From an uncultured Alphaproteobacteria bacterium (lineage in GTDB: Bacteria > Pseudomonadota > Alphaproteobacteria > CAAHEQ01 > UBA3637): DNA of 34,439 bases. The DNA lies in NCBI GenBank assembly GCA_944392145.1, contig CALXVS010000016.1:1-34439 (forward strand), given 5' to 3'. Made by a program: the position numbers and the translations under genes. The notes under the pieces are model-generated. The model was given only the letters and a program-made list of their open reading frames with translations. It did no database searches and was not told where the DNA came from. Positions 3,932 through 34,439 of the stretch are shown here, piece after piece. Position 1 is the stretch's first letter, and each line of letters starts with the position of its first letter.

Positions 3932-4852
3932 ATGGCAAGTTCATCATCAGTCAAAACCATTCGGCCGTCCGTGTCCACGGTGTCGTTGGATTCGGGCCTT
4001 TACGGGTCAACCACGGCGGGTGAAACAAACACGTTCACGCCGAATGCGTTTCAACAAAACTTGGTCAATATGACCGAACAAGGGATTTTAGATTATACCG
4101 ATTATCTGATCAATCCCACTTATGACAATCCGGTTTTTCAAGCGCAAATGGATAACCTGACCCAACAGGCGGACCAAACGTTTGAAAACAACATTATTTC
4201 ACCATTGGCCGAGCGGGGATTGACGCGCGGATCCAATATTAACCAGTTAAGCGCGCAGCATGATCAAAATTTGATAAAAGCCGAGCAAAATCTGATGGCA
4301 AACGATACAACACGCACGTCAAACATTTTATCGCAATTATCCGGTTTGTATCAGTTGCCCTATAACATCTTATCGGGTCTGTATAGTCAGAATCAAAATC
4401 AGCAAATGGCCAACACATCAACGTTAAACGGGCAGTCCATTACAACGGGTAATACCGCTTTAAGTGATCAATTTATGAAGTTGTTTAGCGGTATGAGTAG
4501 TGCACTAACGAGTAATAATAAAAGTTCTGATTCAAGTGTTTTTGACACTGCGGCCAATGCGGCTATAAATGCTGTGATTGGAACCGCTATTAGTGGTGCG
4601 CTTTCCGATGCGCGGTTGAAAGAAAACCTGAAACTGTTAGACACGGTTGAGGGGGTTCACATTTATTTGTTTGACTATATTTCCGGCCCGAAAAATCAGG
4701 TTGGCGTTATCGCTCAGGAAATTTTGGATGCCCACCCCCAAGCCGTCGGCTTGAACGAGGCGGGATATTATTATGTGATTTATCCGATGCTGCCGGCACC
4801 GGTGTTTAATCGCATTGTGGCGTTAAGAAAAGAATTAAACGAAGGAGAATAA
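3932..4852 (+). CDS. Phage virion/ejection-like protein with C-terminal S74-type chaperone segment
   Basis: The protein has 306 residues, with AAAGGA before the ATG. The N-terminal part is Ser/Thr/Gln/Asn-rich and mostly helical. From about residue 225 it reads SDARLKENLKLLDTVEGVHI...VGVIAQEILDAHPQAV...YYYVIYP, which is the pattern of the peptidase S74 intramolecular chaperone (SD.RLKEN, VGVIAQE, PEAV, DY). In tail spikes this segment trimerises the fibre and cuts itself off. Short versions also end many podovirus ejection or tail proteins. The catalytic Ser-Asp start is present. The neighbouring gene follows after 4 bases, so the two are one transcription unit. Virion function is inferred from the domain and neighbours. 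Confidence 0.8.
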   Translation: MASSSSVKTIRPSVSTVSLDSGLYGSTTAGETNTFTPNAFQQNLVNMTEQGILDYTDYLINPTYDNPVFQAQMDNLTQQADQTFENNIISPLAERGLTRGSNINQLSAQHDQNLIKAEQNLMANDTTRTSNILSQLSGLYQLPYNILSGLYSQNQNQQMANTSTLNGQSITTGNTALSDQFMKLFSGMSSALTSNNKSSDSSVFDTAANAAINAVIGTAISGALSDARLKENLKLLDTVEGVHIYLFDYISGPKNQVGVIAQEILDAHPQAVGLNEAGYYYVIYPMLPAPVFNRIVALRKELNEGE

Positions 4853-4856
4853 AACC

Positions 4857-6590: not shown

Positions 6591-6649
6591 GGGATTATGG
6601 CTCCCATTTAAGGACCTCTTCCTTTTTTTTGGGGGGGGCGGTGACGCCC

Positions 6650-6930
6650 CTCATCCCTAAAAAGCGGAATCAGTTTTCCTGGATGCTCGCATGCGCAAGC
6701 ATGACGGGGAGGGGGAGGCAAGGATGACATTTCCCCTCTCTCGTCATGCCCGACCCCGATCGGGCATCCAGGACAACAAAGTCCTTATTTTAGCGATGCG
6801 TCAATGTCAATAAAAGCGGTATTCATGTTGACTGGATGCTCGCATGCGCAAGCATGACGGGGAGAGGGAGGCAAGGATGACGGCCGGAGGAGTATCGCTG
6901 GTGGTGGGTTCTTTCACGAGCGGTGATAAG
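6650..6930 (+). repeat. Dispersed repeat block, plus orientation
   Basis: It contains two units of the CCTGGATGCTCGCATGCGC hairpin module, one CGTCATGCCCGACCCCGATC module and a truncated GGTGGTGGGTTCTTTCACG module. A GGGNAGGG octamer occurs at 6706-6713. No gene is visible from 6591 to 7028. Confidence 0.85.
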
Positions 6931-6970
6931 ACCAAAACATAATACAAAATTTTATTTTAAAACAATTACT

Positions 6971-7012
6971 AAAAGCGGATTATTCAAGCAATACATCCGC
7001 TTTCTTTTTTTT
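6971..7012 (+). terminator. Terminator-like hairpin in the leader of the tail-fibre gene
   Basis: AAAGCGGAT (6972-6980) pairs with ATCCGCTTT (6995-7003), and T-runs follow. It ends 17 bases before the ATG at 7029, and the ribosome binding site AAAGGAG lies just after it. An upstream AT-rich stretch (ATAATACAAAATTTTATT, 6938-6955) could hold a promoter. Confidence 0.6.
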
Positions 7013-7028
7013 ATCAAAGGAGTAACAC

Positions 7029-8612
7029 ATGCAAATTGAAACCATAGAATTGGTGGGCGGAACAAAGGCGCGCGCCAAAGACGTGAATGATAATATCACG
7101 ATTTTAAAAAACGCGATTTATGCGTTAGAGGAAAGCATTGAGGCGCAAAACGCGGTGCTGACAGATTTACAACGTCGGCCGACGCGTCATATGTTTGACA
7201 TTTATTTTTCATTGGAAAATCAGGCGCCGACGGGGGCCTATCCCTTATGGAAAGGGGATTGGATTACGCATTGCGACACCATTTATCCCGAATTTTGGGA
7301 GGCGTTAACCAAGCGGGCCGCGGCCGAAACCATTCCGACCTGTTCGGCGGCCGATTATGAAGAGGCCTTAAGCACATACGGCCAATGCGGTAAGTTTGTT
7401 GTTGACACGTTGAACGGTAAGGTGCGCTTGCCCAAAATCACGCGCTTTATTTCGTCGGTATCAGACATCAGCAGTATCGGCAGCGTTGAAAATGACGCGA
7501 TTCGTAACATTACCGGTTCATTAGAAGGCGGTAATAATACAACGTATTTTTCGGCTTCGTCCGGTGCCTTTTACCGTTCCAGCGACGGGTATGCCGATTC
7601 GGCGGGCAGTTCGGGGCGCAGCGGGCGACCGCGCATGGCGTATTTTGATGCCTCCCGCGTTGTGCCGACGGCGGATGAAAACCGCCCGAAAAACGTGCGT
7701 ATGGGGCTTTATATTCAAATTTCAAACAACACGGCCGACGTGTCGCAATTGGATACGCAAGTGATTGCCAACGAATTAGCCGCGGCCACAGAGGAACTGA
7801 CCGCGTTGAAAGAGGAATTGGCCGCCGCATTAAGCGCCTTGGGCGCCGGTCAGGTATCAGCCATTGAAACGGCGGCCGCCGCGGCCGAGGAAAACGTGCG
7901 CACAACGGCCACTTTGGTGATTCAGGATGTTGAGGCCGCCAAAGAGGAGGCCTTGACAGAGATCGCCGCGCAAAAGGACGATATCATATCGGCCGGTGAC
8001 GATGCTTTGGCGGCGATTGAAGCAGCTGAGGGCGACATTACCACGGCGCGCGACGAAGCGTTAAGCGCGATTGAAGCAGCTGAGGGCGACATTACCACGG
8101 CGCGCGACGAAGCGTTAAGCGCGATTGAAGCAGCCGAGGGTGATATTACCACGGCGCGGGATGACGCGTTAAGCACCTTGGACACTGCCAAAGACGAGGC
8201 AGTGACAGCGGTTTCCGCCCTGGTGGCCGATGCCGAATCGGCCGCCGCGGCGGCAGAAAGTGCGGCGAATCAAGCGGCGGCATCCGTTCAATCGGCGGCC
8301 GACATTGCGGCCGAAACCGCCACGGAAGTAGCCGGGGCTTTGGTCGCGGGTAAAATGGATCAGGTGGTTTCACATGACATCACCTTAACGGCCGCCGGAT
8401 GGGACAGTGTATCGTTCACACAAACGGTCACGGTGAGTGGTATGACGGCGGATAAAATTGTTTGGGTGGCGCCGCGCGTTTCATCCGACAATTTAAACGA
8501 ACAAGCCTATGCGTCTGCGGGTGTGTGGTGCCGCGGGCAGGGGGCAGATACCCTGACCTTTGGGTGCCAAAGCACGCCGACGGCGGATATTTATGTAACA
8601 ATTGTATTTTAA
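7029..8612 (+). CDS. Phage tail-fibre protein with collar-like domain and coiled-coil repeats
   Basis: The protein has 527 residues and a good AAAGGAG ribosome binding site. Residues about 20-55 form a short coiled coil. Residues about 70-160 resemble a tail-collar domain (GAYPLWKGDWI, then YPEFWEAL, then GKVRLPKITRFISS, like 'P.G....G..YPEL...FKLPDLRGRFIRG'). Residues about 240-430 are an Ala/Glu-rich coiled coil that includes three exact 18-residue repeats (AIEAAEGDITTARDEALS). The last 80 residues (ITLTAAGWDSVSF through TADIYVTIVF) match the beta-rich C-terminal domain seen at the ends of many gut-phage tail fibres. The likely role is host-receptor attachment. The next fibre gene follows after 14 bases. 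Confidence 0.8.
   Translation: MQIETIELVGGTKARAKDVNDNITILKNAIYALEESIEAQNAVLTDLQRRPTRHMFDIYFSLENQAPTGAYPLWKGDWITHCDTIYPEFWEALTKRAAAETIPTCSAADYEEALSTYGQCGKFVVDTLNGKVRLPKITRFISSVSDISSIGSVENDAIRNITGSLEGGNNTTYFSASSGAFYRSSDGYADSAGSSGRSGRPRMAYFDASRVVPTADENRPKNVRMGLYIQISNNTADVSQLDTQVIANELAAATEELTALKEELAAALSALGAGQVSAIETAAAAAEENVRTTATLVIQDVEAAKEEALTEIAAQKDDIISAGDDALAAIEAAEGDITTARDEALSAIEAAEGDITTARDEALSAIEAAEGDITTARDDALSTLDTAKDEAVTAVSALVADAESAAAAAESAANQAAASVQSAADIAAETATEVAGALVAGKMDQVVSHDITLTAAGWDSVSFTQTVTVSGMTADKIVWVAPRVSSDNLNEQAYASAGVWCRGQGADTLTFGCQSTPTADIYVTIVF
8013..8174 (+). repeat. Three tandem 54-bp repeats inside the tail-fibre gene
   Basis: Units start at 8013, 8067 and 8121. The first two are identical and the third has a few silent or conservative changes. 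They encode an in-frame 18-residue coiled-coil unit, so copy number can change fibre length without a frameshift. Confidence 0.92.
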
Positions 8613-8626
8613 GTAAAGGAGTTATC

Positions 8627-11600
8627 ATGACAATTATCAATTCAACCATTCAAGGAGGCGGGACTCAAGGCGGCGGTGATGTGGTTACGGCGTATGTCCC
8701 CCATGGCATGACCCCGGCGCAAGGGGATAAAGTGTTGTTAAACCCTGCGGGGGGATATGCATCGGGCGATTATTGGCCCGGTGCCGCCCCCTTTGTGCCG
8801 GTGCGCACATTTTTTTCGCGCGAAACAACACAATTTATTTCGGGGTCAGGCATTTGGGATATTGTGGATGGGCAATTAAAACAAATTGATGTTATTCCCT
8901 ATAACCATGTTCGGGCACAATTGTATAACCAAAGTCATTACACCAACAATTTAATCGGGTTTGTGCCGGTGAACGGAAAAATCAAATTTATTTTGAATTC
9001 ATACGGTATTAGCACACGTCACGAAGACGGGACGTGGTCGTTTAAAACCTATTATGATATTGATTCATCCTTTGAATCCTATAAAATATGGACGTTCGCC
9101 AGTGAAGCACGTTTTGGCGGTGTGGTGATTTCAAGCCGATACGGTTATTCGGGTAACTCTATAAACGGAGCCTTTTTAAAATTATCGGTTGACGCATATG
9201 ACAGCCTTGTCGTTGAACGGTGCATTATCGGCGGTACCAATTTGGGAATAGGATGTGTTTTATCGGAAAGCACCTTTATGGGATATAGCACGCTTTACAC
9301 ATTGACCGAAGACAGTTATACCACAAAAAGTATTACGTCATTTCATAAAACGTATTATGACGAAGAGAACGGGTATATTTATGGCCGTTCTTCTCCTAAT
9401 GCCAGTAATTACAGTGTGGTTCGGTATGATTTTAATTCCGAAACAAATACTCTTTCAAACCGGGTAACCTTTTCAAGTTTGTTAAGCGAGGCCGGACGAT
9501 ATGCATTGATCACAAGCCGCACCGGCAACACCCTTTATTGTATTGGGTGCAATGGTTTTGGGGGTGTTGATATGAATACCGAAACATACGTCAATGAAAT
9601 TGTTTTACCAAACGGTGTCAAAGTAACCATGGATGCTTTATCTTACGGGGATCAGGTTTTAAAAATGAATCCCGTGAATATAAAACAACAAAATAATACG
9701 TTTATTGAAGGGTGCTTTTCCCCCGGACCGCGGTCAAGTTCGTATTATATCCATCCCGGGTTCATTGATTCAAGCAGTATTTTAATTGGCTTGTCTAGTA
9801 ATTTCGGTTATTCCTGTTACGGTAGCAAAACAAACGGTATTTATTCTGTCAATACGGGGAACAGTCAAAACTTTTACGGATCCGGAGCAGATATTATCTT
9901 TGGGCCGAACAATAAAACGTATTATTTTGATAAAGGGATGTTTAACGCCTGGGGCGGATCGTATGCGGTCGGCAAAGCCAATTATAAGTATGAAGTCAAT
10001 ACACGTGTGATTGCGGATCAATATGTCATTGACGATTTTCGCGGATCCGCCGGCCCGACGTTTCGGCAAATGGATAAAGGGGCTCGCACATTAAAAGATT
10101 TGCATTCGTTTGATCGGTGGTATGCATCGTCGGTGTTATTGGCATATCAAGACGGCAACACGCTGGTTGCATACAATGCTTTAATTTCTGCGAACGGGAA
10201 TCCGGGATTGTATCGCGACAGGTATAATCTTGATACCCAATCAGCGGCGTATACCAAGGTTAACAGTGTCACCTATCCCGAAGGGCGCACCGTTCAGACG
10301 TCGGATAATAAATATGCCTTTATTTGTGCTGCAGACGGGGTGTATGCTTATTATGAAAACGAAGCGAAAACCGCCCTTGTGGAAGATACTCAAATGAAAG
10401 CGTATTTTGCCGAAAAAATAACCGATTTTTCGTTCTTGGCGGTTCAATCTTTACCGGAAAATGATATTTATATCATCACAAAAACAGGGGATTATTTGTT
10501 TCATATTGATACAGACACGGGCACGGTGACACAAAAAGCGGCACCATTTGGCGATTTGTTGGCAACCCAAATGATGGGAGGATATTATAATGCCGAACAA
10601 GGTATCGCCATGATGAACACGGTTGATTATGGTGTGTTGGTGCGTGTGTTCAATCCGGTGTTGCAGATTTGGGAAACAAACGCACCGACAGTAACAAAAT
10701 TCGGTGATTATTCATTAACGGGTATTGTTGATGGCGAAACAAAAACGGATGTTTTGGGCAACACCGTTGTTTCGGTTAAAACAATTTTGGATAAAAACAA
10801 TATGCCCGGTATTGATTATGATGCGGTTTCGGGCTTTATGTGTACCCTGAATGGAACGGGGATAGAGGTGAGTAAAGGCATTTTTTATGAAAACCAATCC
10901 CCCAAAGTATTGGCGCAACCCCTTTTAAAAACCTTATCGGCATTTGAAAGCGGTGACGGAAATGGCTCAAGACTTGGCGATGTCAGTGACTTTATGCGCC
11001 TGTTCGCCATAGCGGGCAGCGGCACAACGGATGTGGATATAATAACATATTCCAATCAAAATACTGATAATCCAACGCTGCCGACGGGGTATAATACGTT
11101 GCGTGAAACGGATGATTTAATTGCAACGAACCCTTATACGGGGGAGGCAAAACAAGTGTTTCACCCGTGGACACCGGCAACGGCGGGATTGACTCAAATA
11201 CAGGATTACGGTTATGTTTCTGCCTATGAAACGATTGGTTCTCCCACAATTGAAGCCGGTGTTGTTTCCGGATTCAGTGATGATGATTACCTGACACTCC
11301 CGTCTTATTTGACAAGCACCATGACGTCGTTTGAAGTCGTTGTGCCGTTTGTAACGAATGATATCACCGTTGACAATGCGGGATTGATTGATACAAGTTC
11401 TTCCCCCGGTCACAATTTTCGGTTAACTGTTACGTCCGCCGGCAATTTACGTTTCCGGTTTTCAACATCGGCGAACTCAACAAGTTATGCGGTCAGTATC
11501 ACGGGATCAACCGTGTTGTCTGTCGGGGTTAAATATTGGGCTAAGGTGACCTATAGTTCCTCAAGCGGATATAAGCTGTGGCTTTCATCCGACGGGGAAA

Positions 11601-12799
11601 CATATACCCGGGAAGGCTCGTCGTCAACGACAACACGCCCTTATTACAGCGCCGGTATAACATGGCTTTTGGGTAAAAATGCAGCCGGGGGTTCGGTCCT
11701 TAACGGAACGATTTATTTAGACGGCCTTTCGGTGACGGTGGATAATGTGTTAAAATGGTCTTTGGGATATGTATATCCCGGCAAAGTTGATGTAACAAGC
11801 GGCTATATCAATCAAGATAATCAATCCTATTGGTTTGTTGATACGGATAAAACCCTGACATTAGACAATGATGTTGTGGGGGACAAGGCGTATGAAATGG
11901 GGCTTTATCTTGTCAAATCAGCGGCGTTGGCGGGTGTTGCCCCCAAATTGGCCGGGAACACACCGACGGGGTATGACGCCACCTTGGCATTAGATACATC
12001 ACCTGTTTATTTGTCTGAAGATAAAAGTTTTATCACCACGCCGCCTCATGGGATAGAGGTGAAAGCCGTTTTAGGCAACAACTTAGAGACGGATGCGGCA
12101 TGGACGCGTCCCGATTTGACAAGCGCAACATCTTACGGAACGGTTACGGACAGCCGTAATTCTTCAAGCGAAGCCGGATGGAAAGCCCTTGACGGATCAA
12201 ATTCAACCAATTACGTTGTCCAATCCGGATCGCGCGCGTGGTGGAATTGGGAATTACCAGAATTGATTAAAATATCCAAAATCACATGGGTTCATCGCAA
12301 CAATTCTGAAACGATGGGATCATCCTGCACGTGTCAATTTTTTACCGACGACAGCAAACAAGTGCCCTTGACGGCAACCTTTACCGATCCGTCATCAAGC
12401 AATGCCGTGGTTGAATTGGCGGTTGATAATGTGATAACGAACCGTATTTATTTTGAGGCGAATACACCGTCCGGTTACGGCGGCGCCGCAGAAATTTTAA
12501 TCGAAGCGGTTTTGCCGGCCACAAAAGGATTGATAACCCTTACGACCGGATGGGACCTTTCCGATGATAAACAAACAGCGTTTTATATCAATCAAAACAC
12601 CGTTAAAACATTTGAAGAGTTGACCGACGGTGTGGATAAAGCCCCACAAATGGGTCTGTGGCTGACAAAAACGACAGACGGTGTGACGGACTTTAAGTTA
12701 TATGCAGCCGCGCCGACGGATTTTGCCGGTGTTAAAAAATTGGCCGACGTCACGTTAAGTGATGATTTATCCATGATTGCCGAGGTCACCAATGTGTAA
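8627..12799 (+). CDS. Giant phage fibre/adhesin-like protein with LamG-like and discoidin-like domains
   Basis: The start is set at 8627 because AAAGGAGTTATC precedes this ATG; the frame is open further upstream only through the preceding gene. The product has 1390 residues. An N-terminal Gly-rich turn region is followed by about 750 residues of Tyr/Ser/Gly/Asn-rich beta structure. Residues about 880-1045 resemble a concanavalin/LamG jelly roll (GLIDTSSSPGHNFRLTV, then GVKYWAKVTY, then GTIYLDGLSV). Residues about 1180-1290 resemble an F5/8-type discoidin module (GWKALDGSNSTNYVV, then WWNWELPE). Both fold types usually bind carbohydrate. No signal peptide or LPXTG-like anchor is present, which fits a virion fibre better than a secreted adhesin. 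Its end overlaps the next gene by 8 bases. Confidence 0.8.
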   Translation: MTIINSTIQGGGTQGGGDVVTAYVPHGMTPAQGDKVLLNPAGGYASGDYWPGAAPFVPVRTFFSRETTQFISGSGIWDIVDGQLKQIDVIPYNHVRAQLYNQSHYTNNLIGFVPVNGKIKFILNSYGISTRHEDGTWSFKTYYDIDSSFESYKIWTFASEARFGGVVISSRYGYSGNSINGAFLKLSVDAYDSLVVERCIIGGTNLGIGCVLSESTFMGYSTLYTLTEDSYTTKSITSFHKTYYDEENGYIYGRSSPNASNYSVVRYDFNSETNTLSNRVTFSSLLSEAGRYALITSRTGNTLYCIGCNGFGGVDMNTETYVNEIVLPNGVKVTMDALSYGDQVLKMNPVNIKQQNNTFIEGCFSPGPRSSSYYIHPGFIDSSSILIGLSSNFGYSCYGSKTNGIYSVNTGNSQNFYGSGADIIFGPNNKTYYFDKGMFNAWGGSYAVGKANYKYEVNTRVIADQYVIDDFRGSAGPTFRQMDKGARTLKDLHSFDRWYASSVLLAYQDGNTLVAYNALISANGNPGLYRDRYNLDTQSAAYTKVNSVTYPEGRTVQTSDNKYAFICAADGVYAYYENEAKTALVEDTQMKAYFAEKITDFSFLAVQSLPENDIYIITKTGDYLFHIDTDTGTVTQKAAPFGDLLATQMMGGYYNAEQGIAMMNTVDYGVLVRVFNPVLQIWETNAPTVTKFGDYSLTGIVDGETKTDVLGNTVVSVKTILDKNNMPGIDYDAVSGFMCTLNGTGIEVSKGIFYENQSPKVLAQPLLKTLSAFESGDGNGSRLGDVSDFMRLFAIAGSGTTDVDIITYSNQNTDNPTLPTGYNTLRETDDLIATNPYTGEAKQVFHPWTPATAGLTQIQDYGYVSAYETIGSPTIEAGVVSGFSDDDYLTLPSYLTSTMTSFEVVVPFVTNDITVDNAGLIDTSSSPGHNFRLTVTSAGNLRFRFSTSANSTSYAVSITGSTVLSVGVKYWAKVTYSSSSGYKLWLSSDGETYTREGSSSTTTRPYYSAGITWLLGKNAAGGSVLNGTIYLDGLSVTVDNVLKWSLGYVYPGKVDVTSGYINQDNQSYWFVDTDKTLTLDNDVVGDKAYEMGLYLVKSAALAGVAPKLAGNTPTGYDATLALDTSPVYLSEDKSFITTPPHGIEVKAVLGNNLETDAAWTRPDLTSATSYGTVTDSRNSSSEAGWKALDGSNSTNYVVQSGSRAWWNWELPELIKISKITWVHRNNSETMGSSCTCQFFTDDSKQVPLTATFTDPSSSNAVVELAVDNVITNRIYFEANTPSGYGGAAEILIEAVLPATKGLITLTTGWDLSDDKQTAFYINQNTVKTFEELTDGVDKAPQMGLWLTKTTDGVTDFKLYAAAPTDFAGVKKLADVTLSDDLSMIAEVTNV

Positions 12800-17444: not shown

Positions 17445-17503
17445 GGGTAGACATGTTTCTTGTTTAAAAGAATGGGATGTGTTTTAAAAAAAGGATGGGC
17501 TGT

Positions 17504-18502
17504 ATGGCATTTTTAAAAAAGTTTTCTGTCGCGGCAGAAGGAATTGTTGCGGTTTTGATGATTTTTTTATTTTTGTATTTTGTCAGAATCTTTGACACGT
17601 TGTGGGCCCCGTTCCTGGTGGGGGGATATGTGTTGGTATCAAAAGTTATGGGCGGATCATTCCTGCCGACGGGACGTTTGGGCCGTTGGATGATGCGGCC
17701 GTTTATCGGGGTGTTTTGCTTGTTTTTGATTCTATTTTGTGTCAGTTTTTACTATATGTCATCGGATCCGACCTATTTATCCGAGGCGTGGTATGGGGAT
17801 AAGTCGTTTTTGCTGTTGTATATAAACCTGTTTGTATCGGGTGTTTATTTGTTCTTGAGTTTAAAAGGCGGCCGGTTGTGGAATGAAACGGATATTGTGC
17901 GGCTGTTTTGCCGAACGTTGTGTGTGGGGGCGGTGTTTTTGTGGATGTTTGAATGCGCGATGTATGAAGATTTGTGGGACGGCACATATATGAAATATCC
18001 ATGGTATCGGATTGCGCCGCTTTTGAACATGTTTTCACCCGATGAACGCATGTCATTCACGGTGGCCGTGCAAAGTGTTTCACTGGCTTTTTTAATTACC
18101 GCGTGTGTCAGTGCCGTTCGCTTTAACAAACACCAAACGCCTTTTTGGGTGGCGGCAGCACTGTTTATGATTTTTTTAATGTCGCACAAAACGTTTTATT
18201 TATGGTGGCGGTGGGGAACACTGTTGCCGTGGACGGGGCATTTGCTTGGGCTGACAGCGGTGATTCTGGTAATGTTTCGGGCGGCCACCGGCACCTTTTT
18301 TCCGCAAGGCAAGACGTTATCGGTCATGCGCGGCCTCTTACTGGCTTTGGTTGTGGGCAATGCCCTTATTTGGATGCAGGGGCGCGTTGTTTTGATTATG
18401 CCTGACAGGATTGTGAATTTGATTACCCTGATGGGAATCGGCGGGTGGTTTGTTCTTTCAAGCGAGCCCGGCGGGTCCCGTCGTTTGGAAAAGAAATGTT
18501 AA
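17504..18502 (+). CDS. Multi-pass membrane protein, paralogue 1 (unknown function)
   Basis: I start at 17504 rather than the in-frame ATG at 17477 because AAAAGGA lies 8 bases upstream of the former. The product has 332 residues and about nine or ten membrane segments. Blocks FLPTGRLGRWMMRPFIGVFC, RLWNETDIVRLFCRTLCV, LWDGTYMKYPWYRIAPLL and RFNKHQTPFWVAA are shared, with conservative changes, with the next gene, so the two arose by tandem duplication. A shorter relative is at 442-1083. There is no recognised transporter or enzyme motif. Clustered Trp, Tyr and Asp residues in the loop LWDGTYMKYPWYR are the best-conserved feature and may form the functional site. Confidence 0.75.
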   Translation: MAFLKKFSVAAEGIVAVLMIFLFLYFVRIFDTLWAPFLVGGYVLVSKVMGGSFLPTGRLGRWMMRPFIGVFCLFLILFCVSFYYMSSDPTYLSEAWYGDKSFLLLYINLFVSGVYLFLSLKGGRLWNETDIVRLFCRTLCVGAVFLWMFECAMYEDLWDGTYMKYPWYRIAPLLNMFSPDERMSFTVAVQSVSLAFLITACVSAVRFNKHQTPFWVAAALFMIFLMSHKTFYLWWRWGTLLPWTGHLLGLTAVILVMFRAATGTFFPQGKTLSVMRGLLLALVVGNALIWMQGRVVLIMPDRIVNLITLMGIGGWFVLSSEPGGSRRLEKKC

Positions 18503-18552
18503 ATTTGTGATTTAAAAAACATAAATACCATATTGAATAAAGGAGTTTTTTT

Positions 18553-19572
18553 ATGTCATTTATAAAAGGGTTTCGTTGGGTAACAATGGCGGCGGTTATC
18601 ATCCTGTTAGCGGTTGGTTTTGTTTTTATCATAAATAAAAGTGCATCGGCGGCGCACTTATGGGGATTGGTGCTGATAGCGGAAAGTGTGCTGCTGACAA
18701 TGATGTTCGGGGGAACTTTTTTGCCCGCCGGTGCGGTCGGGCGCGGGGTAATGCGCGTGATGATCGGTGTGTTTTGTGCTCTATCGCTTTTTTTCATGTT
18801 GTATTTTTATAATTTTAAGTCGGGACCGGCGTGTGGCCATTGCATTTTGCATCAGCCTGAAGAGTTGTTCTTTTCCCTGTTAAACGGGGTAATTATCGGC
18901 GGATATGTGCTTTTTAATCTTTGGCGCAGCCGGTTGTGGGATGAAACGGGTCTTGTGCGGGTGTTTTGCCGAATGCTGTGTGTGGCGGCGGCCCTGATTT
19001 GGATGTTTGACAGCGTGACATATCAAGACCTGTGGGATGGGGAATACTTTAAATATCCATGGTATCGGGTTGCCCCGTTTTTTAAAGCGTTTTCACCCGA
19101 TGAGCGTATGCTGTTTACCGTGTTGGTGCAGGGTGTTTCACTGGCTTTTTTAATTGCCGCGTGCGTCAGTGCCGTTCGCTTTAACAAACGCCAAACGCCT
19201 TTTTGGGTGGCGGCGGCCGTGTTTATGATTTTTTTAATGTCCGAAGACACGTTTTATTTATGGGACGAGCGGGGAACATTGTTGCCGTGGACAGGGCACT
19301 TGTTGTGGATAATCGCGCTGGTTTTCCTGACTGTTCGGGCGGCGGCCGGCACCTTTTTTCCGCAAGGGCGCACTTTATGGATGATGCAGGCGGTTGTTAT
19401 TGCCTTGGTTGCGGGGAACGCCTTTATTTGGATGCAAGACGGTGTCACGCTTTCGGTGGTTGAAACGGCATTGAACCTTGTCACCTTGATAGGGGTCAGT
19501 TGGTGGTTATGGGGCGGTTGTGACCGGGCGTTTTTGTCTGTCTGTCCGCATTTTGAATCAAAGCATACATAA
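18553..19572 (+). CDS. Multi-pass membrane protein, paralogue 2 (unknown function)
   Basis: The protein has 339 residues. AAAGGAG precedes the ATG by 7-8 bases, and the gap from paralogue 1 is 50 bases with no terminator, so cotranscription is likely. It has the same membrane topology and the same blocks as paralogue 1 (FLPAGAVGRGVMRVMIGVFC, LWDGEYFKYPWYRVAPFF, RFNKRQTPFWVAA). It differs mainly in the N-terminal third, which has an added loop with CGHCILHQPEE (two close Cys and two His, possibly metal-binding). The function is unknown. Confidence 0.75.
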   Translation: MSFIKGFRWVTMAAVIILLAVGFVFIINKSASAAHLWGLVLIAESVLLTMMFGGTFLPAGAVGRGVMRVMIGVFCALSLFFMLYFYNFKSGPACGHCILHQPEELFFSLLNGVIIGGYVLFNLWRSRLWDETGLVRVFCRMLCVAAALIWMFDSVTYQDLWDGEYFKYPWYRVAPFFKAFSPDERMLFTVLVQGVSLAFLIAACVSAVRFNKRQTPFWVAAAVFMIFLMSEDTFYLWDERGTLLPWTGHLLWIIALVFLTVRAAAGTFFPQGRTLWMMQAVVIALVAGNAFIWMQDGVTLSVVETALNLVTLIGVSWWLWGGCDRAFLSVCPHFESKHT

Positions 19573-26043: not shown

Positions 26044-26178
26044 ATGAAACGCACATATCAACCCAGTAAGCTGGTTCGCACGCGCCGTCACGGTTTTCGT
26101 GCCAGAATGGCAACCGCCGGGGGCCGTTTGGTGTTAAACGCCCGTCGTCGTAAGGGGCGCAAAGTTTTAAGCGCATAA
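26044..26178 (+). CDS. rpmH: Ribosomal protein bL34
   Basis: The product has 44 residues, [20 protein letters not shown] and so on, ending in [11 protein letters not shown]. This is the full-length, very basic L34 of the large ribosomal subunit and agrees with the family along its entire length. AAGGAG lies 9-10 bases before the ATG. It is the first gene of the block continuing to rnpA and yidD, in the usual bacterial order. The consensus-like promoter at 25901 drives it. Confidence 0.98.
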
Positions 26179-26206
26179 AAACCGGCGCTTTTGGCTTTCG
26201 GTTGAG

Positions 26207-26252
26207 AAAAGATTTAAGTGCCTTAAATAAAAAAAGGTATCTTAAATCTTTT
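26207..26252 (+). promoter_or_regulatory. Long hairpin between rpmH and rnpA
   Basis: AAAAGATTTAAG (26207-26218) pairs perfectly with CTTAAATCTTTT (26241-26252), and inner bases GCCTT/AAGGT extend the stem. The stem ends in TTTT, so it may partly stop transcription or act as an RNase processing site that sets the L34 to RnpA ratio. Confidence 0.65.
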
Positions 26253-26274
26253 GTCGTATAAAAAAGGGAAGATG

Positions 26275-26724
26275 ATGAAACCGCGCCGTTTGAAAAAAAG
26301 AAAAGAATTTGTTGCCGTGACCAAACAGGGGGTATCGCTGCCAACCTGTGGCATGGTGGTTCAGGTTTTATCCCATAATTTAAAGGCCGTGCGCTTGGGC
26401 TTTACAACGACCAAAAAATTGGGGCATGCCGTGGTGCGCAATCGTATTCGCCGGCGCTTAAGGGCGGTGGCCGATGCGGTTTTTGCCGAGTGGCCGATAC
26501 AACAGGGCGATTTTGTGTTAATCGGCCGCCGGGCAACGTTTGATCGGCCGTTTGACGCCCTGAAGCAAGATTTAACCTTTGCGCTTTATGAATTGGCGCG
26601 GCAGGGGGCCTTTCCCCTGACGGATAAGACCCTGTTAAGGACAGGGGGTGCGCCTCAAGTGCTGTGCGATCCTAAAGAGAAAAGCACGCCGTCCCCCGTG
26701 CAAACGGCGGATAAGGGCGCATGA
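26275..26724 (+). CDS. rnpA: Ribonuclease P protein component
   Basis: I use the second of two adjacent ATGs (26272/26275), which suits the AAGGGAAG ribosome binding site. The frame is open upstream only through the rpmH-rnpA hairpin. The product has 149 residues. MKPRRLKKRKEFVAV and the family signature KKLGHAVVRNRIRRRLR (about residues 46-62), which contacts pre-tRNA and P RNA, are clear. It helps the RNA enzyme remove 5' leaders of tRNAs. The C-terminal 30 residues after about 120 (Pro/Lys/Thr-rich) are longer than in many RnpA proteins. It overlaps yidD by 4 bases. Confidence 0.96.
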   Translation: MKPRRLKKRKEFVAVTKQGVSLPTCGMVVQVLSHNLKAVRLGFTTTKKLGHAVVRNRIRRRLRAVADAVFAEWPIQQGDFVLIGRRATFDRPFDALKQDLTFALYELARQGAFPLTDKTLLRTGGAPQVLCDPKEKSTPSPVQTADKGA

Positions 26725-27011
26725 AATATCCCCTGTCACACGTGGCAGCAAAAGGGGCGGTCGGGTTGATTCGCCTGTATCAACTGGTTGTTTCCCCGTT
26801 TAAAGGGCCGTGTTGCCGGTTTACGCCGACGTGTTCGGCCTATGCCAAGCAAGCTTTTTTGTTGCACGGCCCCGTAAAAGGTGCTATCTTAACCCTCAAT
26901 CGTTTATGTAAGTGCCACCCGTGGGGCGGGTGGGGGTTTGATCCCGTTCCGCCCGCACCGGGAAATTTGAAAGAAAAAGGAAAAGAAAATGACACGCAAG
27001 TTAGAGGATGA
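26721..27011 (+). CDS. yidD: Membrane protein insertion efficiency factor YidD
   Basis: The product has 96 residues. The family core LIRLYQLVVSPFKGPCCRFT, then PTCSAYAKQAFLLHGPVKG and LCKCHPWGGWGFDPVP is complete, including the conserved cysteines. The N-terminal helix is amphipathic and would lie on the inner membrane, where YidD aids YidC. It overlaps rnpA by 4 bases and yidC by 23 bases, so the three are translationally coupled. The usual order is kept. Confidence 0.96.
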   Translation: MKYPLSHVAAKGAVGLIRLYQLVVSPFKGPCCRFTPTCSAYAKQAFLLHGPVKGAILTLNRLCKCHPWGGWGFDPVPPAPGNLKEKGKENDTQVRG

Positions 27012-28662
27012 AAAACAAGAACAACGCAATTTATTTGTGGCCATGTTGGCGGTCATTGCGGTTTTGTTTTTATCAAAAATGTTGTTTCCCGCGGCGGATA
27101 TAAAAACACCCGCCACCCGCGAAGCCGCGGTTATTGCCGCCGAAGATAAAGCCGCCGCCGCACCGGCCCCCACCTTTACCGTATCGTCAACCGATGCGGC
27201 GGATGCGGTCGCGCCCCAGCCGGCACAGCCCGTTACAATACGATCCAATCTGTTGTCGGGATCTTTGACCACAAAGGGCGGGCGCATTGACAATTTGTCG
27301 TTGACCGCCTATCGTCAAGACAACACGCCCGATTCGCCGTTTGTTCAGTTGTTGGATGCACGGTATCAGGTGGGCTGGCAATGGACCAGCACCGATGTCA
27401 TGATGCCCGATTCATCCACTGTGTGGCAGGTTCAGGGTGACGAATTGACCCCCTTTACCCCCGTTCAATTAACGTGGCAAAGCCCGCAAGTTAAAATCAC
27501 CCGCACCCTGTCGGTGGATGAGGGGTATTTAGTAACCGTTCAAGACACCGTCACCAATTTGACCGGGCACCCGATTCGGGTGGCGTTATCCGGTCGGTTG
27601 GACCGTGAATTAGACCACATGCCCGTCCCTTCAACGGTGCACGAGGGCTTTTTGGGCTATTTGAACGGTAAGTTGGTGGAGGAAACATACGAAGCCGTTC
27701 GGGACGATTCGTTTTCATCAAAAACGCACGGCGGATGGATGGGCATGACCGATAAGTATTGGCAAAGCGTTTTTATTTTTGATGCTGCCGATACGCCACG
27801 GGTTGATTTTTCGGCCAATGGACAAACATTTTCGGCCGCGTTTCAAATGCCGGCCGAAACCATTCCGGCGGGCGGCAGTGTGCAAAAAACCGCCCGTTTG
27901 TTTGCCGGCGCCAAAGACATGGATATGATTGACGGGTATGAAAAAAGCCTGAACATCCCGCGGTTTGATTTAAGCATTGATTTCGGTTGGTTTTACTTTT
28001 TGACGCGGCCGTTTATGATGTTTTTAAATTGGCTGTATGCCATGGTGGGCAACATGGGAATTGCCATTTTGATTTTTGCGACTTTGTTGCGCATTGCCCT
28101 GTTACCGATTGCAACCAAATCGTATGAAAGCATGGCCAAAATGCGCAAAATTCAACCCAAAATCAAAGCCCTGCAAGACCGGTTTAAAGACGATCGCATG
28201 CGGTTGCAGCAAGAGATGATGAACCTTTATAAGCGTGATAAGGTTAATCCGGCGTCGGGATGTTTGCCGATATTGATTCAAATTCCGGTCTTTTTTGCAT
28301 TGTATAAGGTGTTGTCTGTATCCCTTCACATGCGGCAGGCGCCCTTTTTCGGGTGGATTCAGGATTTGTCTTTGCCCGATCCGGCGTCGGTATTTACGGC
28401 GTTCGGGTATGTGCCGTGGCCGATTCCGTCCTTTTTGGATATCGGTATATGGCCGGTGTTGATGGGATTAACCATGTGGATTCAGCAAAAGTTAAACCCC
28501 GCACCGACGGATGCAACACAAGCGACGCTGTTTAAAGTCATGCCGGTGTTGTTCACGTTTATGTTGGGTAACTTTGCCGCCGGATTGGTCATTTATTGGA
28601 CATGGAGCAATATTTTATCCATTTTACAACAAAAATATATCATGAAGAAAGTGGGGGTATAA
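26989..28662 (+). CDS. yidC: Membrane protein insertase YidC
   Basis: The product has 557 residues, with GAAAAAGGAAAAGAAA upstream of the ATG inside yidD. An N-terminal anchor (about residues 15-31) is followed by a linker rich in Ala/Pro and the periplasmic beta domain (about 75-330), as in Gram-negative YidC. The insertase core is about 345-555. It holds the conserved Arg368 in the first core helix (LLRIALLPIATKSY), the coiled-coil cytoplasmic hairpin (MRKIQPKIKALQDRF) and SGCLPILIQIPVFFALYKVL. It inserts and folds inner-membrane proteins, alone or with Sec. The next gene starts one base after its stop. Confidence 0.97.
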   Translation: MTRKLEDEKQEQRNLFVAMLAVIAVLFLSKMLFPAADIKTPATREAAVIAAEDKAAAAPAPTFTVSSTDAADAVAPQPAQPVTIRSNLLSGSLTTKGGRIDNLSLTAYRQDNTPDSPFVQLLDARYQVGWQWTSTDVMMPDSSTVWQVQGDELTPFTPVQLTWQSPQVKITRTLSVDEGYLVTVQDTVTNLTGHPIRVALSGRLDRELDHMPVPSTVHEGFLGYLNGKLVEETYEAVRDDSFSSKTHGGWMGMTDKYWQSVFIFDAADTPRVDFSANGQTFSAAFQMPAETIPAGGSVQKTARLFAGAKDMDMIDGYEKSLNIPRFDLSIDFGWFYFLTRPFMMFLNWLYAMVGNMGIAILIFATLLRIALLPIATKSYESMAKMRKIQPKIKALQDRFKDDRMRLQQEMMNLYKRDKVNPASGCLPILIQIPVFFALYKVLSVSLHMRQAPFFGWIQDLSLPDPASVFTAFGYVPWPIPSFLDIGIWPVLMGLTMWIQQKLNPAPTDATQATLFKVMPVLFTFMLGNFAAGLVIYWTWSNILSILQQKYIMKKVGV

Positions 28663-28663
28663 G

Positions 28664-29305
28664 ATGTCAGAGGAACAAAACATTCCATTTATTGAAGCGG
28701 GCAAAGAGCTGTTCAAAACACCGGCCGTGTTTGAACGCGGGGTGACGACGGTGGAACAACTGCCAACGGATAATTTGTTGGAGTTTGCCTTTGCCGGCCG
28801 GTCAAACGTGGGCAAGTCCAGTTTAATCAATGCCTTGACCGGGGTCAGCGGCTTGGCACGAGCCTCGAACACACCCGGTCGGACCCAGGAGTTAAACTTT
28901 TTTAAATTGGGCAACACATGTCATATTGTGGATTTGCCGGGATACGGTTATGCCGCTGCCCCCGAAAAAGCGGTGCAAGCGTGGACGCAGTTGATTCATG
29001 CCTATTTGCGCGGGCGGGTGCAATTACGGCGCGTGTTTTTGTTGATTGATGCGCGTCACGGCGTTATGAAAAACGACCAAAACATTATGCGCATGTTGGA
29101 TAAAGCCGCCGTGACCTATCAAATTGTTTTGACCAAGACCGATAAAGTGCCGGCCGTTTTGCTGCCAAGTAAGGTGCGGTCGGCGCATACGGCAGGGCAC
29201 CGGCATGTAGCGTGTTATCCCCAAGTGTTGGCAACCAGCGCCCAAAAGAAACAAGGAATTGACCTGTTACGGGCCGAGTTTGCCAAAGCGTTAAGCGGCG
29301 TTTAA
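28664..29305 (+). CDS. engB: Ribosome-biogenesis GTPase EngB/YsxC/YihA
   Basis: The product has 213 residues. The GTPase motifs are G1 GRSNVGKSSLINAL (about residue 45), the G2 Thr in NTPGRTQ, G3 DLPGYGYA and G4 TKTDK, followed by the G5-like TSAQKKQG. This is the compact EngB family needed for late assembly of the 50S subunit. The N-terminal 25 residues before FKTPAVFERG vary in the family. It is tightly packed between yidC (1-bp gap) and mnmE (1-bp gap). Confidence 0.96.
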   Translation: MSEEQNIPFIEAGKELFKTPAVFERGVTTVEQLPTDNLLEFAFAGRSNVGKSSLINALTGVSGLARASNTPGRTQELNFFKLGNTCHIVDLPGYGYAAAPEKAVQAWTQLIHAYLRGRVQLRRVFLLIDARHGVMKNDQNIMRMLDKAAVTYQIVLTKTDKVPAVLLPSKVRSAHTAGHRHVACYPQVLATSAQKKQGIDLLRAEFAKALSGV

Positions 29306-29306
29306 C

Positions 29307-30632
29307 ATGGGGGATTATTGCTTAACCGATACGATTTTTGCCCCCGCGACCGGGGCCGGTGCGGCGGGGGTGGCCATTGTGCGCGTATCGGGTTCTTTGG
29401 CCCGAACGGCGGCGGAACAATTGGCGGGCCTTAAAAATCCCGCGGCGCGGTATGCGTATTTTCGCCCGATTCGGGACAAAAACGGGGAATTGATTGACAA
29501 GGGCCTTGTCCTTTACTTTGCCGCGCCGGACAGTTTTACGGGCGAAGACGTTGTTGAATTTCAAGTGCACGGCGGGCGCAGCGTGATTCGCGCCGTGTTG
29601 GCGGCGTTAGGGGACATAGACGGGTGCCGGCCGGCCGAACGCGGGGAATTTTCGCGGCGGGCCGTTTTAAACGGCAAAATGGATTTGACCGAGGCCGAGG
29701 GGTTGTTAGACCTGATTCATGCGGAAACAGACCGTCAACGGGTGCAGGCTGCCGCCCAAATGTCGGGGGCGCTGAAAACACTGTATGACGCGTGGCGCGA
29801 TTTGTTAAAGCGTCACATGGCGTATTTGGAAGCCTTTATTGATTTTCCCGAAGAAGAAATCCCCGCGTCTGTGTTAAACACCCTGAATGCCGATGTGACC
29901 GAATTGGCCCGTCAAATCACCGCGCATTTAAATGATCAACGGCGCGGGCAAACGCTGCGCGACGGGTTTCACATGGCCCTGATCGGGCCGCCGAATGCGG
30001 GGAAATCAAGCCTGATAAACGCGTTAAGTCAAAAAGAGGCCGCGATTGTTTCGGAAACGGCCGGCACCACCCGGGATGTGGTTGAGGTGCACTTGGACGT
30101 GGATGGCTTCCCCGTGATTTTGGCCGATACCGCCGGGTTACGAGAGCAAGCCGATGCGCTTGAAGCCGAAGGGATTCGCCGTGCGGTGCGGCAGGCCGAA
30201 ACGGCCGATTTAATTTTAAACGTATCGGATGCCCGCACTTATCCCATCCCCAATCCGTTACCAAACGGCCTGTCGGGCGATAAGGTTATGGTTGTGTGGA
30301 ACAAAGCGGATTTGGCCGAATCGCCTCCGCCGGATGCGGTCAGTGCCCGCACGGGGGCCGGAATAGACGCCCTGTGGGCACGCCTGTGCGGGGTATTACA
30401 CGACCGTTTTTGTGACAGTGCCGGTGCAACCGCCCCCGTAACGCGGGAACGGTATCGTGTGGCGTTGGGGGAGGCATTGGCGGCCTTAACCCGTGCGGGG
30501 CAGGTTGATGAAATTGAATTAAAAGCCGAAGAGCTGCGCTTGGCCGCCCGGGCAATCGGTCGCATCACGGGGCGGATTGAAACAGACGAAGTGCTGGATG
30601 TGATTTTTCGGGATTTTTGCATCGGCAAATAA
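29307..30632 (+). CDS. mnmE: tRNA modification GTPase MnmE
   Basis: The product has 441 residues. The N-terminal tetrahydrofolate-binding domain begins DTIFAPATGAGAAGVAIVRV and has HGGRSVIRAVLAAL and the ERGEFSRRAVLNGKMDLTEA block. The G domain has GPPNAGKSSLINAL (about residue 227), TTRDVVEV, DTAG and NKAD. The C-terminus is FCIGK, whose Cys438 is the conserved C-[IVL]-G-K residue. With MnmG it adds the (carboxymethyl)aminomethyl group to C5 of wobble uridine 34 in several tRNAs. The ribosome binding site is weak, and translation is likely coupled to engB. mnmG follows after 15 bases. Confidence 0.97.
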   Translation: MGDYCLTDTIFAPATGAGAAGVAIVRVSGSLARTAAEQLAGLKNPAARYAYFRPIRDKNGELIDKGLVLYFAAPDSFTGEDVVEFQVHGGRSVIRAVLAALGDIDGCRPAERGEFSRRAVLNGKMDLTEAEGLLDLIHAETDRQRVQAAAQMSGALKTLYDAWRDLLKRHMAYLEAFIDFPEEEIPASVLNTLNADVTELARQITAHLNDQRRGQTLRDGFHMALIGPPNAGKSSLINALSQKEAAIVSETAGTTRDVVEVHLDVDGFPVILADTAGLREQADALEAEGIRRAVRQAETADLILNVSDARTYPIPNPLPNGLSGDKVMVVWNKADLAESPPPDAVSARTGAGIDALWARLCGVLHDRFCDSAGATAPVTRERYRVALGEALAALTRAGQVDEIELKAEELRLAARAIGRITGRIETDEVLDVIFRDFCIGK

Positions 30633-30647
30633 AGGATAAACAAGGCG

Positions 30648-32507
30648 ATGAACAAGACACAAACAAGGTTTGACGTGATTGTGGTCGGGGGCGGCCATGC
30701 GGGGTGTGAGGCTGCCGCGGCCGCCGCGCGCACGGGGGCAAAGACGGCGTTAATAACGCATCATTTACATACGATTGCCGCCATGTCGTGCAATCCCGCC
30801 ATCGGCGGTTTGGGCAAAGGCACGTTGGTGCGTGAAATTGACGCGCTGGACGGCTTGATGGGGCGGGTGATTGATGAAACGGGTATTCAGTTTCGCATGT
30901 TGAATCAATCCAAAGGGCCGGCGGTGCAAGGGCCGCGCGCGCAAGCCGATAAGGAACGCTATCAGGCCTGTATGCGGCATATGTTGGAAAATTACCCGAA
31001 TCTGACGCTGTTGGAAGGGGAGGTAACGGATTTATTCAATGACGGGGAGCGCGTTACAGGTGTTGGTGTGGGAGATGTATGTTTGACGGCCGCTGCCGTG
31101 GTGGTGACGACCGGCACGTTTTTAAACGGTGTGATGCATATCGGACCTGAACAAATCCCCGGCGGGCGTTACGGGGAGGAGGCCGCCGTCGGACTGACCG
31201 CTGCTTTACGCCGATTGGGGTTACAGGTCGGGCGCCTGAAAACCGGCACACCGGCGCGGTTGGATAAAAACACAATTAATTTTTCGGTCTGCACGCGTCA
31301 AGACGGCGACACACCGCCGCGGCCGTTTTCGTTTTTAAGCGATGCGTTTGCCCCCGAACAAGTGCCGTGTTACATCACACACACAACCCCCGCCACGCAC
31401 AAAATTATTTTGGATAATTTAAGCCGTGCGCCCCTTTACAGTGGTCAGATTAAATCCATCGGCCCGCGGTATTGTCCCAGTATTGAAGATAAACTGGTGC
31501 GCTTCAGCGGCCGGGACAGTCATCACATTTTTTTGGAGCCCGAAACGCGTGCGGGGAACAGTATTTATCCGAACGGGATTTCCACATCTTTGCCAAAAGA
31601 TGTGCAGGACGCCTTTTTGCGCACGATTCCCGGCCTTGAGAACGTGCGGATTTTGCGCTATGCCTATGCCATTGAATATGATTATGTGGATCCGCGTGCG
31701 TTAAAGCCCACTTTAGAAACCAAACAGGTGCGGGGGTTGTATTTGGCCGGTCAAATCAACGGCACCACGGGATACGAGGAAGCGGCCGGCCAAGGTCTGA
31801 TTGCCGGTGTGAATGCGGCCCTGAACGCAACGGGGCAGGGGCAAGAACTGATTATTGACCGGACCGAAGGGTATTTGGGCGTCATGATTGACGATATCAC
31901 CACGTTGGGGGTGGATGAGCCCTATCGGCTGTTCACATCGCGGGCGGAATATCGGTTAAGCCTGCGTGCCGATAATGCGGACATGCGCCTAACGCCCAAA
32001 GGCATCGCGGTGGGATGTGTCGGCCATAAGCGGCGCGACCGGTTTTTAAAGAAACAGGCTGCTTTCACGGCCGCGATGGCACAGGCGGCCGCATTGACCT
32101 TTACGCCGTCCGAGTTAAAACGCCGCGGGTTTAAAAGTGCTTCGAACGGGCAAAAACGGCATGTGTTGGAGCTGTTAACCTGGCCGGATGTTACGTGGGC
32201 GGATGTGTGTGCCGTGGCGCCGTTTTTGGCGGATTTATCCCTCGATGTGGCCGAACAGTTGGAAATATCGGGGCGTTACGCCGGCTATTTGGCACGGCAA
32301 CAAGCGGACATTGACGCCTTTCGCAAGGATGAGGGCCTGAAACTGCCCGATACACTTGATTTTGACAAAATCGGCGGGCTGTCAACGGAAATTGTGGGCC
32401 GCTTGAAAAAATTTAAACCCGCAACCATCGGGGCCATGCGCCGGTTGACGGGTGTGACGCCCGCCGCAGTGACCGCCGTCATCGCCGCCCTTAAAAAAGG
32501 GAAATAG
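30648..32507 (+). CDS. mnmG: tRNA wobble-uridine modification enzyme MnmG (GidA)
   Basis: The product has 619 residues. The FAD-binding Rossmann motif [20 protein letters not shown] is at about residues 10-29. [32 protein letters not shown], the second block [20 protein letters not shown] and [20 protein letters not shown] are all present. The C-terminal helical domain ends in [14 protein letters not shown]. It works with MnmE on U34 of tRNAs. The usual following genes (rsmG, parA, parB) are absent; repeats and the dif region begin after the stop. Confidence 0.97.
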
Positions 32508-32524: not shown

Positions 32525-32815
32525 GCGGGGAGCGGAATAAGTTATGGCCCGGATGCGCGCATGCGCATTTCTCCTTCTCTTGTCATACCCGCGCAGGCGG
32601 GTATCTTTTCCTCTCATGTCATGCCCGACCCCGATCGGGCATCTTTCTCCTCTCCACCGTCACCCTCTAAGCTTGACCCGAGGGTCCAGGGCAATGAGTC
32701 CTTATTTTAGCGGGGCGTTAAGGGTAGGGAAAGCGGAATCAGTTTTTTCTGGATGCTCGCTTTCGCAAGCATGACGATTGGGGTTGTGTCAGCGTCCAAG
32801 ATTCCTCTCCGCCGT
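32525..32815 (+). repeat. Dispersed repeat block, last one in plus orientation
   Basis: The modules CATACCCGCGCAGGCGGGTATC, CATGCCCGACCCCGATCGGGC, CTCTAAGCTTGACCCGAGGG, TCCTTATTTTAGCGGGGCGT and GGATGCTCGCTTTCGCAAGC are followed by GACGATTGGGG...GCCGTCATGCC, where the repeat breaks off. It ends about 280 bases before dif. Confidence 0.85.
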
Positions 32816-32913: not shown

Positions 32914-33095
32914 TTTTGCCTCCTTTTTTCAAAAAGTAACATTTTTAAAAGGCGTAAAAAAACGAATTAAAATCAACATTTTGTTGATTATTCTTCATTT
33001 TAACGCGTTTTTTAAAAAAGCGCAATAAATCAAAAGAAATCTTATATAAATCAAATAGTTGCAGGATGTATATTATATATAACGATTTTTCAAAA

Positions 33096-33123
33096 GTTAT
33101 ACATAATATACATTATGCGACAA
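33096..33123 (-). other. dif-like XerC/XerD recombination site
   Basis: On the minus strand the 28 bases read: XerC arm TTGTCGCATAA, centre TGTATA, XerD arm TTATGTATAAC. The E. coli dif arms are GGTGCGCATAA and TTATGTTAAAT around the same TGTATA. The inner 19 bases, CGCATAATGTATATTATGT, are identical; the differences are in the outer four bases of the XerC arm and three bases of the XerD arm. XerC and XerD resolve chromosome dimers here at division, activated by FtsK. The polarity switch of repeats and KOPS-type octamers at this spot supports the call. A mobile element using Xer sites is the main alternative. Confidence 0.85.
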
Positions 33124-33178: not shown

Positions 33179-33187
33179 TGTGGATAA
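33179..33187 (-). promoter_or_regulatory. Isolated DnaA-box-like 9-mer
   Basis: TGTGGATAA is the reverse complement of the consensus DnaA box TTATCCACA. A one-mismatch relative, TGTGTGTAA, follows at 33190-33198. Two sites are too few to define an origin. Confidence 0.35.
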
Positions 33188-33229
33188 GTTGTGTGTAAGT
33201 TATGGAACAAAGGGTGTTTTTCACTTTCG

Positions 33230-33544: not shown

Positions 33545-34375
33545 GCAACGCACCCCGGCGGGCATCCTTGCTTCCCTCCCCTCCCTTGACACCACATCAG
33601 GAAGCATCACCGCCCATGAAAGAACCCACCACCCGCAACACCCCTCCGACCGTCCTCCTTGCGCAGGCGAGGATACCCCTCCCCCGTCATGCTTGCGAAT
33701 GCGAGCATCCAGGAAAACTAATTCCGCTTTTCCTGCCCTTAACGCCCCGCCAAAATAAGGAATTATTGCCCTGGACCCTCGGGTCAAGCTTAGAGGGTGA
33801 CGACAGAGGGGAACCACCGTTCGCGACAAGTTGTCCCGGACGGCGACACCACCTCCAGCGGTCATCCTTGCGTATGCGAGGATCCAGGCAGCATGAATGC
33901 CGCTTTTAGAGACCTTTGACATCCCGCCAAAAATAAGGATTCTTTGTCCTGGATCCTCGGGCCAAGCCCAAGGATGACATGGAATGGGTTGTCCGCTATC
34001 GCGGAAAACGGACTCTTTGCTCTGGATACCCGATCGGGGTCGGGCATGACGGGAGGGGGAGGATGTCCTCCTTGCGCATGCGAGCATCCAGGCAGCATTG
34101 ATACCGCTTTTATTGACATTGACACCTCGCTAAAATAAGGATTCTTTGTCCTGGATCCTCGGGCCAAGCCCAAGGATGACGACAGAGGGGAACCACCGTT
34201 CGCGACAAGTTGTCCCGGACGGCGACACCACCTCCGGCGGTCATCCTTGCGTATGCGAGGATCCAGGCAACACTGATACCGCTTTTATAGGGGCGTTGAC
34301 ACTTCGCCAAAATACGGTATTGCTATCCTGGATGCCCGATCGGGGTCGGGCATGACGAGAGAGGGGAAATGTCAT
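33545..34375 (-). repeat. Large composite dispersed-repeat block, minus orientation
   Basis: The same modules as left of dif appear here, all reverse-complemented: GTCAAGCTTAGAGG, CCCGATCGGGGTCGGGCATG, GCATGCGAGCATCCAGGC and CGCTAAAATAAGGA. About 90 bases at 33801-33892 recur nearly identically at 34181-34272, and about 50 bases at 33931-33980 recur at 34131-34180. KOPS complements (CCCTNCCC) lie at 33574-33581 and 33677-33684. Open frames of 60-210 codons crossing the block are repeat sequence. Confidence 0.9.
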
Positions 34376-34439
34376 CAACCCAGATAATAAAAAAAATAAG
34401 TGTAAGTATTATTTATTTTATAAGTGATTGAAAGTATTT
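34376..34439 (-). mobile_element. 3' end of a second IS110-family element, inverted
   Basis: Read on the minus strand this repeats 115-180, with a few changes in the non-coding part. It abuts the repeat at the same internal position (ATGAC) as the left copy. The rest of the element lies outside the window. Confidence 0.7.
34418..34439 (-). CDS. IS110-family transposase, last codons only
   Basis: Only NTFNHL and the stop are inside the window, identical to the end of the left fragment at 118-138. The stop codon is the complement of 34418-34420. Confidence 0.65.

Follow-up and report, generated by a model that had tools for sequence, protein, structure and literature searches.

The question raised by this locus is whether the 28-nt sequence lying shortly beyond mnmG is the chromosomal dif site, at which the two replication arms would end, given that mnmG lies near the replication origin in many bacteria. 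The window, by which we mean the whole stretch of 34,439 nt that was analysed, is the entire contig C16, and the stretch beyond the site measures only 1.3 kb. The site is composed as follows:

33096-33123, minus strand: chromosomal dif (very probable), with the XerC arm TTGTCGCATAA at 33123-33113, the centre TGTATA at 33112-33107 and the XerD arm TTATGTATAAC at 33106-33096

Direct comparison confirmed the claim of the preliminary description that a 19-base run on the minus strand is identical to E. coli dif in the correct 11-6-11 layout: the full minus-strand 28-mer (33123-33096, TTGTCGCATAATGTATATTATGTATAAC) has arms and centre of 11, 6 and 11 nt, and its 19-nt core CGCATAATGTATATTATGT (33101-33119) is the same as that of E. 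coli K-12 dif. In addition, the first 22 nt of the 28-mer are the corresponding 22 nt of the Magnetospirillum dif (PMC2731167). With the dif sites of E. coli K-12 and Magnetospirillum magneticum AMB-1, on which the proteobacterial XerCD recombinases act, the site therefore shares the layout and the 19-nt and 22-nt identities, respectively, and also the low GC content, the intergenic location, the single copy and the position at a skew turn. The gene-free, AT-rich setting described earlier was likewise borne out, since the 28-mer has a GC content of 25%, is intergenic with GC below that of the chromosome, and lies 588 nt from the end of mnmG (32507); from there to the contig end (34439) no credible gene was found, and Rfam and tRNA scans gave no matches.

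A scan of the whole genome (1.45 Mb, 49 contigs) found no better dif elsewhere. The 28-mer was the sole match at two or fewer mismatches, and the 19-mer core occurred once genome-wide. The only other match at three or fewer mismatches, C19:8417, lies inside an ORF and is without the XerC arm, and shuffled windows gave zero matches at three or fewer mismatches over 24 positions. Orthologs of the site were present in 28 genomes of the same family, with the consensus TTGTCGCATAATTTATATTATGTATAGT or a near variant and a single copy per genome in most relatives. A chance match of the 28-mer is ruled out by its uniqueness together with these orthologs. The family is, by sequence, related to the Rhodospirillales, its members forming one clade beside a Rhodospirillaceae sequence in the MnmG tree.

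The genome also encodes the machinery expected to act at such a site: a XerD-like gene (C4:26117-26977), a XerC-like gene (C11:4303-5178) and an FtsK-gamma domain (C3:10969-11142). The two Xer proteins scored best against PRK00283/XerD and XerC, respectively, both below the XerC/XerD equivalog cut-offs. From established knowledge of Xer systems, septal FtsK would load at KOPS and translocate DNA toward dif, where it would activate XerD and next XerC, and chromosome dimers would be resolved; XerCD cleavage and recombination at the 28-mer are predicted on the same grounds. The single copy, the 28 family orthologs and the presence of these genes uphold the identification as dif, and we consider it very probable that 33096-33123 is the chromosomal dif at the terminus of this small-genome alphaproteobacterium.

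The assignment to the terminus was supported by strand composition and by the polarity of the octamer GGGNAGGG, which is KOPS (PMC13342612). The octamer used here is identical, its polarity switches at dif and there is no notable difference from the known system. The copies in the window are distributed as follows:

6706-32729, plus strand: 14 copies of KOPS, all on this strand and directed to dif
33574-33684, minus strand: two copies of KOPS beyond dif, directed back; both read GGGGAGGG, are low-complexity and near repeats, and are weak

GC skew in the window was +0.117 before dif and -0.050 after it, the latter over the 1.3 kb beyond dif only, so that the turn near 33.1 kb runs from plus to minus, opposite in sign to an origin. 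In relatives with enough contig, skew turned from plus to minus at dif (G019, G029, G008 and G001) or within about 5 kb of it (G013, G018, G020 and G004), and G010 showed no flip at dif. KOPS were still more consistent, with 39 directed toward dif versus 0 away in seven relatives and 42 of 42 on the same strand across 220 kb in G025. Letter permutations of GGGNAGGG were also strand-biased, as skew predicts, and none was equally common or pure; KOPS polarity is a far better marker of the terminus than GC skew. The placement of the terminus at dif thus stood in the window and in most relatives. Genome skew was assessed on sampled stretches of unordered contigs, and these included, on C5 (at about 36 kb), a second plus-to-minus turn where KOPS converge and dif is absent, and an extra minus-to-plus turn with matching KOPS polarity on C15 (at about 6-8 kb). 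Either an inversion or a misjoin would account for these extra turns, which complicate the view of the genome as a whole.

The preliminary description had overlooked two features beside the site, a conserved DnaA box and an inverted copy of dif. The first belongs to a small module on the XerC side:

33179-33187, minus strand (the dif strand): DnaA box TTATCCACA, starting 64 nt upstream of dif
33190-33198, minus strand: degenerate second DnaA-box-like 9-mer TTACACACA, starting at -75, with one mismatch to TTATNCACA

The exact TTATCCACA was found at -62 to -64 from dif in 21 of the 29 family genomes, the window's included, and within 100 nt of dif in 25, with all 12 genera that have a dif locus represented, although the 29 genomes are not independent of one another. 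Four genomes (G028, G029, G017 and G024) have dif without a DnaA box. The local background was 2 exact boxes in a total of 76 kb of flanks at the same loci. A second box is usual in relatives, at -74 to -76 with a spacing of 12, where the window has a spacing of 11; hence most relatives carry a pair, and the window one exact and one degenerate box. Across 2.1 Mb of sequence from the family, 10 tandem pairs were counted, 9 of them at dif and one in an origin cluster. A relaxed motif resembling the IHF site consensus WATCAANNNNTTR (PMC4585315) was present in 21 of the 29 genomes, nearly always at -46 to -49, with the perfect consensus in 7, and the dif flank of the window had no IHF-like match.

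The genes on the XerC side were mostly unrelated between genomes and often pointed toward dif. Since the gene neighbours vary in this way, the box, as judged from the sequence comparison, travels with dif through changes of neighbourhood. Ancestry without constraint is an unlikely cause of a 9-base match kept at fixed spacing across 12 genera with diverged flanks. A box fixed near -63 on the XerC side distinguishes the family from the dif sites of E. coli and Magnetospirillum, and no DnaA box was found near E. coli dif or seven other alphaproteobacterial dif sites. A genome of a different family, G053, carries TTATACACA at -85 along with an IHF-like motif resembling that of the family, and the module may therefore be older than the family. 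In a literature search of partial coverage, DnaA boxes beside dif were not found reported.

Viral contigs were compared as well. Among those with a similar dif (11 matches), none had a box at the spacing of the family, and the pattern of box plus dif appeared in 5 viral contigs that were merely loosely similar or chance cases. Two viral contigs of unrelated sequence, L286 and L288, have TTATCCACA upstream of a dif-like site, at distances of 51 and 69 nt, and a third, L257, contains three closely spaced dif-like sites.

The usual view assigns the control of initiation and that of termination to opposite ends of the chromosome. That 12 genera with changing neighbours hold a DnaA box at a fixed distance from dif suggests a direct link between initiator and terminus. 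We tentatively propose that DnaA binds at the dif module and has a role at the terminus. More specifically, and just as tentatively, the initiator may be tied to the terminus by a module for DnaA binding (with an IHF-like motif) that keeps its distance from dif throughout the family, and that would reset DnaA or license the next round, or would make dimer resolution dependent on DnaA. That DnaA and IHF bind the module, and that it has a function, are predictions from sequence. By analogy with known systems, a datA/DARS-like or Xer-accessory DnaA site at the terminus is the most likely reading of the module. As a site of the former kind, being replicated last, it would alter DnaA activity at termination in the manner of datA and DARS2; as one of the latter kind, it would carry an accessory complex aiding Xer synapsis. 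E. coli datA and DARS2 combine DnaA boxes with an IHF site, conserved in spacing and outside genes, and the putative module resembles them in this at the level of the family. They lie away from dif, and the family has one or two boxes, adjacent to dif at the terminus; the window further differs from them by the absence of an IHF-like match.

That the module serves Xer recombination as an accessory site for DnaA, with or without IHF, and is not a regulator of initiation appears rather unlikely. Accessory sequences of plasmid cer, where ArgR and PepA act, also lie on the XerC side, and the fixed spacing of the module on that side resembles them; against this, four family genomes keep dif without the box, and chromosomal dif elsewhere requires, to our knowledge, FtsK only. 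It is improbable that the conserved box is a promoter or operator element of a neighbouring gene, unconnected with dif. The box does lie upstream of ihfB-accD in the g5 and g8 genomes, in which this gene pair recurs on the XerC side of dif, but the XerC-side gene varies, and in G001, G019, G003, G026, G021, G013 and G006 it points toward dif while the box is kept. A promoter role is unlikely because these genes are mostly unrelated and often directed toward dif, and in the window there is no gene on the XerC side for 1.3 kb.

The second overlooked feature is peculiar to the genome of the window, and distinguishes it from the dif sites of E. coli and Magnetospirillum:

33056-33083, plus strand: inverted degenerate dif-like site TAGTTGCAGGATGTATATTATATATAAC, with the XerD arms of the two sites facing and 12 nt between them

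This partner is identical to dif at 23 of 28 positions, where a local Markov null reached a maximum of 21 in 2000 trials, and among the 30 dif loci compared it was present in the window's genome only. With five positions differing between the arms, an artefact of fold-back assembly is unlikely. In single-stranded form, the two sites together fold more stably than shuffled sequences (z -4.3). Phages of the CTX type use a folded inverted att pair (PMC5357621), and this likeness, together with a partner 12 nt away in this genome alone and phage-tail-like genes within the window, would fit the attachment scar of a mobile element that exploits Xer (IMEX), or else a dif module left empty, in place of a plain dif. 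The folded attP of CTX-phi (attP1/attP2) likewise consists of two inverted dif-like sequences capable of forming a hairpin; its spacing, however, is about 90 nt versus 12 nt here, and no phage is attached here. Unlike in CTX-phi attP, the partner keeps the XerD arm and the centre and has a decayed XerC arm. No second direct copy of dif and no element between the two sites were found, and it is the main 28-mer that is orthologous across the family. A scar of this kind is thus very improbable, and the site is better read as the plain chromosomal dif of the family.

Least of all do we credit the idea that the AT-rich, DnaA-box-bearing pocket by mnmG is the replication origin and the dif-like motif incidental: the exact DnaA box at 33179, the AT-rich DNA and the origin-near mnmG of many bacteria favour it, but it was rejected because the skew, plus before and minus after the site, is the reverse of an origin, KOPS converge on the conserved 28-mer, and the DnaA-box clusters and the minus-to-plus turn of relatives lie near parA instead.

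With dif rather than an origin at this position, the location of the neighbouring gene block becomes the remaining point of the preliminary description, which had claimed a rearranged chromosome. The block is as follows:

26044-32507, plus strand: rpmH-rnpA-yidD-yidC-engB-mnmE-mnmG, transcribed toward dif and codirectional with replication

At nearly all non-family alphaproteobacterial mnmG loci compared, rsmG-parA-parB directly follows mnmG. In the window's genome this order is broken, with rsmG-parAB on contig C13 and rpmH-mnmG at dif. The dnaQ/rsmG-parAB region marks the origin, as the adjacent skew turns from minus to plus and DnaA-box clusters are found there in relatives. The claim of a rearrangement was therefore sustained as to the broken order, with the qualification that mnmG and rsmG are separated across the family and not in this genome alone: rsmG was absent beside mnmG at every family mnmG locus, within the flank of up to 1.5 kb that was fetched. 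The distance from mnmG to parA was 16-74 kb in five relatives, and that from mnmG to dif was 56 kb in G013, at least 136 kb in G028 and 210 kb in G025. The 0.6 kb between mnmG and dif in the window's genome was unique among the genomes that could be placed. Since rsmG is absent beside all family mnmG genes and the distances from mnmG to dif vary, mnmG and rsmG were parted long ago and throughout the family, and mnmG came to lie beside dif at a later time or only in this lineage.

Many relatives have an MBL-fold gene and tatD on the XerD side of dif, where rpmH-mnmG stands here instead; the MBL gene of the window's genome sits on contig C8. In this genome the rpmH-mnmG block, in which mnmG would normally adjoin the rsmG-parAB of the origin, has been relocated next to dif, and the locus is a clear case of genes that usually lie near the origin being moved to dif. 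Repeats surround the site on both sides:

32658-32776, minus strand: copy of a dispersed repeat of about 120 bp in the interval from mnmG to dif, opposite in orientation to the copies on the far side of dif
33683-34376, plus strand: array of the same dispersed repeats of about 120 bp beyond dif, reaching near the contig end

The repeat arms flanking dif (I1) are 99 nt long and 90% complementary, and these inverted repeats could have mediated the rearrangement. The repeat of about 120 bp had 91 matches in the genome. On almost all contigs that have both, it runs opposite to the KOPS, so that the repeat is polarised along the replication arms, and some copies contain KOPS.

Several other genes were recorded in the window. 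The phage-tail-like genes, with an S74 chaperone domain and tail collar/fibre matches, occupy 3932-12799, ahead of the rpmH block and within the terminus region, and 1892-2995 encodes a Fic/DOC-family protein with a Fic_N domain. Predicted membrane proteins with no Pfam match are encoded at 442-1563 and 17477-19572, and the latter region is made up of two apparent tandem paralogs (17477-18502 and 18553-19572).
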